From a virus: DNA of 25,216 bases. Below are positions 24,964-25,216 of this stretch, piece after piece. A program made the translations under genes and the position numbers. Position 1 is the first letter of the stretch; each line of letters starts with the position of its first letter. A model generated the notes under the pieces. The model was not told where the DNA came from. It ran no database searches and saw only the letters and a list, made by a program, of their open reading frames with translations. The DNA lies in the IMG/VR virus record IMGVR_UViG_3300042924_006764, positions 1 through 25,216 of that record; one strand, written 5' to 3'.

Positions 24964-24994
24964 TTTGTCATTAGAAAAAAAGTATTTATCTTTG
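24964..24994 (+). promoter_or_regulatory. Perfect Bacteroidota-type promoter for the RNA locus
   Basis: TTTG (24964-24967), 19 bases, TATCTTTG (24987-24994), an exact match to TTTG-N19-TAnnTTTG. The expected start near 24999-25001 coincides with the 5' arm of the RNA's closing stem. No equally good promoter lies just before the tmRNA. Confidence 0.85.
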
Positions 24995-24996
24995 TA

Positions 24997-25085
24997 AGAG
25001 AAATCACGGGTGGCTCCCTTAATAGTTAAGGCTGACCTTAAGCATCTGACCAAAAGTCTATACAGGGGGCGAAAGTGATTTCTTT
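24997..25085 (+). ncRNA. Structured RNA of unknown family between promoter and tmRNA
   Basis: An approximately 89-base element closed by an 11-bp stem: AGAAATCAC (24999-25007) pairs with GTGATTTCT (25075-25083), extended by one G-U and one A-U pair. Inside, GCTCCC (25013-25018) can pair with GGGGGC (25065-25070, one G-U), TTAAGG (25026-25031) with CCTTAA (25036-25041) across a CTGA loop, and GAC with GTC around CAAAA. A second CCTTAA at 25017-25022 competes for the same TTAAGG and would break the GCTCCC helix, so two folds are possible. It does not fit tRNA, 4.5S, 6S or the hammerhead core, nor a riboswitch class I can recall. It may be an independent sRNA or a leader controlling the tmRNA. 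Confidence 0.6.
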
Positions 25086-25100
25086 GTTCTTTGAAAATAT

Positions 25101-25216
25101 GGGGGTGACCGGTATTGATTGGCAGGGTTAGTCATACGGGGCATGCGGTGAGATGTTTCCTATCACCTTAATCTATGGATGCAACAATCAAACGGCGAAA
25201 CTTTCGCAACACTCGA
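25101..25216 (+). ncRNA. ssrA: Transfer-messenger RNA (tmRNA), 5' part; 3' end beyond window
   Basis: The run starts GGGGGTGACCGGTATTGATTGG, the acceptor-stem and D-loop-like start of tmRNA, and contains the conserved GGGGCATGC. A hairpin GGTGA (25147-25151) with TCACC (25163-25167) fits the first pseudoknot, and TTAATCTATGGATG follows as in Bacteroidota tmRNAs. The resume region AAACGGCGAA matches that of Bacteroides tmRNA, so the tag reads Gly-Glu-Thr-Phe-Ala-Thr-Leu and continues past the edge. tmRNA with SmpB frees stalled ribosomes and marks unfinished proteins for degradation. The tag differs from the Bacteroides form GENNYALAA after its first two residues. No SmpB gene is seen in the window, so host SmpB would be needed. 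Confidence 0.93.

Follow-up and report, generated by a model that had tools for sequence, protein, structure and literature searches.

A covarying phage RNA element with a three-way junction, placed before, inside or after tmRNA and in tRNA arrays

Near the end of the 25,216-nt stretch of viral DNA analysed here (IMG/VR record IMGVR_UViG_3300042924_006764; hereafter, the window), a segment of 89 nt stands between a predicted promoter and a tmRNA gene. What is this segment, does it adopt one fold or two, and what could a phage gain from carrying it? The original prediction had described it as an unassigned bistable RNA, in which a single TTAAGG (25026–25031) could pair with a CCTTAA either upstream (25017–25022) or downstream (25036–25041), the former at the expense of a GCTCCC/GGGGGC helix (25013–25018 and 25065–25070); we found each of these motifs at those positions. 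The source record is that of a T4-like phage, with a PHROG terminase and major head protein, and the best relatives of the terminase include Flavobacterium phages (28% identity). On the minus strand of the window, an open reading frame at 1333–2862 contains a long proline/threonine-rich repeat (TPTPT), and perhaps encodes a phage structural or adhesion protein.

The 89-mer (24997–25085, plus strand, like all window features described below) was predicted to fold at −30.3 kcal/mol (z = −3.5), a value equalled by none of 200 dinucleotide shuffles. Its outermost helix, P1, comprises 11 pairs, one of them G–U, between 24997–25007 and 25075–25085. An internal loop, formed by J1/2 (GGGUG, consensus RGGUG; 25008–25012) and J2/1 (GAAA; 25071–25074), leads to P2, in which GCUCCC (25013–25018) pairs with GGGGGC (25065–25070), and P2 opens into a three-way junction carrying two hairpins. 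The latter are P3 (UUAAGG-CUGA-CCUUAA; 25026–25041) and P4 (GAC-CAAAA-GUC, with a variable loop; 25048–25058), connected by the joining strands J2/3 (UUAAUAG; 25019–25025), J3/4 (GCAUCU; 25042–25047) and J4/2 (UAUACA; 25059–25064). Altogether, the element consists of a core of ~65 nt and a variable clamp helix, P1.

Homologues were collected by pattern scans of viral contigs and by one scan of genome contigs, whose matches were mostly due to chance and were set aside. Counting near-duplicates, some 84 true loci were found besides the window, all on phage contigs except two on Patescibacteria genome contigs. A covariance model (R1) built on 22 loci, the window sequence among them, scored the window element at 104.9 bits (E = 6e-26) and recovered sequences that were not members of the model at E values of 1e-10 to 1e-15. 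These included GC-rich phage contigs (L121, L122, L126 and L128), the 636-kb huge phage LR756504 (L131) and loci bearing extra hairpins (L119, L124, L127 and L055); the most diverged pair, L120 and L129, was recovered at E values of 0.0008 and 0.009. The same core thus occurs in AT-rich Bacteroidota-type phages, in GC-rich phage contigs and in huge phages.

When cultured phages and plasmids were searched, the only carriers were the uncultured huge-phage records LR756500 and LR756504, and the plasmid matches were due to chance. Among bacterial genomes, none of 296 from Bacteroidota carried the element, in a search run without a positive control. Of 192 from Patescibacteria two did, and among 88 genomes from the order to which one of these belongs there was a single carrier; a cellular origin was rejected on these counts. 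Occurrence in cells is sporadic, and the two Patescibacteria copies (L085:5481–5576 and L133:1501–1589), one lying behind a rarA-like gene and the other behind a possible HNH gene, may have been acquired from phages.

Comparison of the homologues, as the original prediction had proposed, revealed strong covariation. In an alignment of 64 sequences fitted to the covariance model (~21 clusters at 85% identity), 90.4% of the cells were paired, as against 75.1% upon shuffling, and 20 of the 25 pairs showed two-sided changes. The covariation score was 0.392, compared with 0.139 ± 0.008 for shuffles, and slid controls did not exceed 0.092; a MAFFT alignment of 22 sequences agreed (0.398 vs 0.163). 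Two-sided changes affected nine of the nine P1 pairs tested in the alignment of 22, and all six pairs of P3 and the four modelled pairs of P4 in that of 64. P1 is rewritten from locus to locus: the window group has AAATCAC/GTGATTT, L115 has GAAACAAC/GTTGTTTC and L066 has ATAATTAG/CTAATTAT. P2 was paired in 99% of the cells and varied at its outer pair (G–C, A–U or G–U), the single covarying one, while its U–G wobble was kept in 64 of 64 sequences.

The weighted information per position was highest in J4/2 (1.95 bits), followed by P2 (1.85), J3/4 (1.72) and the unpaired RGGUG/GAAA loop (1.62), and was much lower in P3 (0.93) and P1 (0.26). P1 is a clamp, conserved for its pairing only, and the active part is P2 with the joints. 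Aptamers, protein-binding RNAs and ribozymes show conservation of this kind, whereas plain processing hairpins do not, and the pattern looks like that of a core that binds or catalyses. P1 is weak or absent in a few members, where, upon inspection of the sequences, a strand of P4 appeared able to pair with the 3' flank instead (GUUAAGGU/ACCUUAAC in L133 and CCGGGG/UCCCGG in L067).

The same data bear on whether the RNA is a switch. Both alternative pairings of TTAAGG are perfect in the window, and in this respect the original prediction stood; the upstream one, however, would cost ~8.5 kcal/mol when enforced, for a computed ensemble fraction of ~1e-6. It showed no two-sided changes, and at least one of its pairs was broken in 13 of the 22 aligned sequences, down to a minimum of three pairs out of six, while the downstream P3 hairpin retained five or six of six pairs by compensatory change. 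A case in point is L051 (UCAAGG/CCUUGA), where compensation preserves the downstream helix and leaves the upstream one a pair short. GC-rich homologues, moreover, have a separate hairpin in place of J2/3, the strand to which part of the first CCTTAA belongs. Because the upstream pairing does not covary, fails in homologues and is so sparsely occupied, we conclude that the element has a single stable fold, and the proposed bistability was abandoned; a switch class, with two mutually exclusive helices both covarying, is not what the alignment describes.

A Bacteroidota-type promoter is predicted at 24964–24994 (TTTG at 24964–24967, N19, and TATCTTTG at 24987–24994), just before P1 begins at 24997; the transcript would therefore start at the 5' arm of the 11-bp stem, as originally anticipated, and transcription of the element is presumed from the position of this promoter. 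Directly past P1 comes the motif GTTCTTTGAAAA (25086–25097), which element-free tmRNA leaders also have and which some tRNA arrays carry close to the element; it and the leader motif GTTCTTTGAA may be akin to the boxA antitermination motif. The 5' part of the tmRNA gene (ssrA) occupies 25101–25216 and is cut by the end of the window. This start was assigned because in the near-identical locus L003 (element at 1512–1600 and Rfam tmRNA at 1086–1496, both minus) the tmRNA begins 15 nt past the element, the very spacing that had been proposed for the window.

When viral contigs were scanned with the 5' end of the tmRNA, 13 loci were returned. Four of them (L003, L006, L007 and L013) contain the element, which lies 3' of the promoter and 5' of the GTTCTTTGAA motif. 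The other nine lack it, and there the leader motif and the tmRNA come next without an insert, in most cases behind a promoter of the same type (it lies directly 5' of the tmRNA in L002, L005 and L012). L013 and L011 have an upstream gene in common; in L013, ~90 nt are cleanly inserted between TTTGTA and GTTCTTTGAA, and L011 lacks them. This comparison, together with the element-free loci, shows that the pre-tmRNA 5' leader can have the element inserted or do without it, and the absence from nine of 13 close tmRNA relatives implies that it is not essential at this site. Since element-free loci mostly keep the promoter, the latter belongs to the tmRNA rather than to the element alone and, judging from its position, would serve both.

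Placement in a tmRNA leader was found at 36 loci besides the window, and in nine of them, L003 included, RF00023 confirmed a tmRNA starting 15–17 nt past the element. At 15 other loci the element lies inside the tmRNA, between PK2 and PK3. In L057, for example, the Rfam tmRNA (474 nt) spans the element, and in L057, G012 and G014 the RF00023 match includes it as extra length (474–476 vs 382–411 nt); this insert is absent from most other loci whose tmRNAs have the same tag end. Separately, we observed that phage tmRNAs with that tag end (L134–L162) differ greatly between PK2 and the tRNA-like end, a linker that seems particularly prone to structural change.

Still other placements were seen. 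In LR756504 the element (280462–280373, minus) follows the tmRNA (280863–280507, minus) by 45 nt; nine loci lie in tRNA arrays, and L119/L130, L114 and L067 lie beside one tRNA. Seven loci (L058, L066, L074, L116, L118, L124 and L127) had neither a tRNA nor a tmRNA in the flanks retrieved. One of these stand-alone copies, that of L074, has a matching promoter just 5' of P1, and no consensus intrinsic terminator was found downstream of this copy. Every carrying record scanned had a single copy (28 of 28 and 9 of 9 in two scans), several of these records being far longer than 100 kb.

Two neighbouring features deserve a mention of their own. Just 3' of the element in two huge-phage records (L055:430–560 and L113, minus), a possible second structured RNA of ~130–150 nt is closed by AACTATTGGA...TCCAATAGTT. 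In the tRNA arrays of L024, L039, L047 and L052, a common non-tRNA segment beginning with TTGTGGTTGTAAGAAACGGGAAACTCGTAAAGTG follows the element and is possibly another structured RNA.

Tests against known RNA classes left the element unassigned, again in agreement with the original prediction. Rfam 15 returned no match in the window at the gathering threshold, and in E-value mode only chance matches appeared (TB10Cs1H1 at 17.3 bits vs 45, ASpks at 16.9 vs 52). In L066, L055, L067 and 14 other loci, too, the element itself was unmatched by Rfam. Neither ARAGORN nor Rfam matched anything in the window, where the tmRNA is truncated, and neither ARAGORN nor RF00005 found a tRNA at the element. 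A part of the tmRNA fold was rejected because RF00023 either starts past the leader-type element or spans it as extra length, and a tRNA/tmRNA processing leader as such because the same tmRNAs occur without the element and copies occur elsewhere. The placements, before, inside and after tmRNA, in tRNA arrays and beside unrelated genes, are not those of a riboswitch. A group I intron core was dismissed, as no Rfam intron matched and the element stays under 130 nt wherever it holds no inserted ORF; a homing endonuclease gene in a peripheral loop was seen in L116 only. A possible contact of J1/2 (AGGUG) with the 16S anti-Shine-Dalgarno was discarded, as GAUGG variants break the pairing, and resemblances to the Pistol, hammerhead and hairpin ribozymes failed on inspection.

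The closest known company is that of GOLLD and ROOL, phage and prophage RNAs of undefined function that are often found near tRNA islands (PMC12286853, PMC2864571). The linker of GOLLD can contain tRNAs, and ribosomes bind GOLLD in pull-downs, according to work cited in PMC12286853. Our element resembles these RNAs in being phage-encoded and often beside tRNA islands; however, they are RNA cages of hundreds of nucleotides, whereas it measures ~65–90 nt and has one three-way junction. The broad category is known, but the element shares neither size (its core being only ~65 nt) nor Rfam model with GOLLD or ROOL. Bacteriophage T4 offers another possible likeness in its stable RNAs C and D, small non-tRNA RNAs of obscure function within the phage tRNA cluster; no T4 record was among the matches listed in our phage searches. 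With tmRNA (RF00023) the element may share a transcript or a molecule, but tmRNAs with the same tag end occur with and without it. A literature search yielded no description of the element, which may stand uncommented in a 2017 set of 224 RNA motifs or in a 2023 catalogue of ~10,000 viral RNA candidates.

What, then, might the element do? The reading we favour, though tentatively, is that of a trans-acting phage RNA module, carried on stable-RNA transcripts, whose core would bind a host partner conserved across phyla. At the window locus, the element would be transcribed as the first ~100 nt of the pre-tmRNA and freed by the cut that generates the tmRNA 5' end; elsewhere it would remain within the mature tmRNA or be made alone from its own promoter. 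The P2/junction core would then bind a partner conserved across host phyla, for example in the translation or RNA-processing machinery, to the benefit of the phage. Action in trans is something we infer from sequence comparison: in its favour are the covariation, the concentration of information in the joints and P2 (1.6–2.0 bits, vs 0.26 in P1), the single copy per record and the variety of placements, from 15 nt before tmRNA to inside it, 45 nt after it, in tRNA arrays and alone. The same core in AT-rich, GC-rich and huge phages points to a widely conserved partner, and the copies inside tmRNA suggest that the latter is used as an abundant scaffold. Against a trans-acting module, embedding in structured RNAs would equally suit a role in cis, the HNH genes associated with it at six loci speak more for mobility than for a takeover of the host, and most close tmRNA relatives lack the element at the leader site.

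A role in cis, in which the element would help to protect, fold or process the pre-tmRNA or tRNA transcript that contains it, or would act in its antitermination, for instance as the upstream partner of the boxA-like GTTCTTTGAA motif, strikes us as unlikely. Its position at the 5' end of the pre-tmRNA, just before that motif, and its presence in long untranslated tRNA arrays speak for such a role. The boxB–boxA of rrn leaders and the put antiterminator RNAs of HK022 likewise sit in the leaders of untranslated transcripts beside boxA. Unlike them, however, the element is also found within tmRNA, past its 3' end and by itself, and is not known to have any sequence in common with them. The copies within mature tmRNA and 45 nt past it, and those that stand alone, are hard to reconcile with a role in cis, as are the close relatives with the same tmRNA and promoter and no element. 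In particular, a function confined to tmRNA maturation is disfavoured by the stand-alone copies without tRNA or tmRNA nearby, one of which, in L074, has a matching promoter just before it.

Just as doubtful, in our estimation, is a selfish RNA spread by HNH homing endonucleases and tolerated at intergenic or linker sites, with a fold needed for its own propagation or harmlessness. In L116 (1883–2600, minus) the element is split at J2/3 by an insert of ~630 nt with an HNH endonuclease gene (PHROG 374, E = 3e-21), and at L121, L128, L123, L129 and L056 an HNH gene lies next to the element or overlaps with it; the HNH candidate in L133 was recognized by eye and had no family match. At the same place in J2/3, L114 has an insert of 22 nt with the same 3' end as that of L116, possibly its remnant, and J2/3 is expanded by hairpins in L114, L119, L124 and L126. 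The HNH gene within J2/3 and the HNH neighbours indicate that this joint belongs to the periphery of the RNA and that homing endonucleases are drawn to the locus. Sporadic occurrence in cells (a single genome in the Patescibacteria order of 88) and several unrelated insertion sites would also fit a mobile element. Yet the element is in single copy in every carrying record scanned, most copies have no HNH gene beside them, phages of this kind often have free-standing HNH genes, whose target may simply be a conserved site, and nowhere did removal of the element appear to restore an interrupted gene. Group I introns with homing endonucleases and IStrons (PMC4227781) are comparable for the HNH gene in a peripheral, expandable joint, as seen in L116, but the element is far smaller, has no Rfam group I match and splits no gene that its removal would restore.

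A new class of ribozyme, self-cleaving or self-splicing, is less probable still. Small size, conserved joints, freely variable helices and promiscuous contexts would suit one, and so would the P4 strand that may pair with the 3' flank in place of the P1 pairing (L067 and L133). No Rfam ribozyme matched, however; ~80 nt is far below the size of known self-splicing introns, and self-cleavage is unlikely given the copies inside tmRNA, as cutting between PK2 and PK3 would break it. As for TTAAGG alternating between its two CCTTAA partners, the perfect complementarity of both in the window is outweighed by the upstream pairing's lack of covariation, its fall to three of six pairs, its minute predicted occupancy and the hairpin that takes the place of J2/3 in GC-rich homologues, so that a switch is barely credible.

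Returning to the trans-acting module, it is possible, if far from assured, that the element represents a new class of small phage RNA, whose conserved junction core binds or inhibits a host component of broad conservation (most likely one of translation or RNA processing), and which phages of different host groups have time and again plugged into tmRNA and tRNA transcripts, with tmRNA as its natural expression scaffold. A core conserved across phages of several host groups, and repeatedly built into tmRNA, implies a target common to many bacteria. The alignment and the covariance model make the element directly testable. With it, an RNA family would be added to those known, and perhaps a new RNA of host takeover as well; its insertion shows that tmRNA can accommodate a foreign RNA domain, which it may also display.
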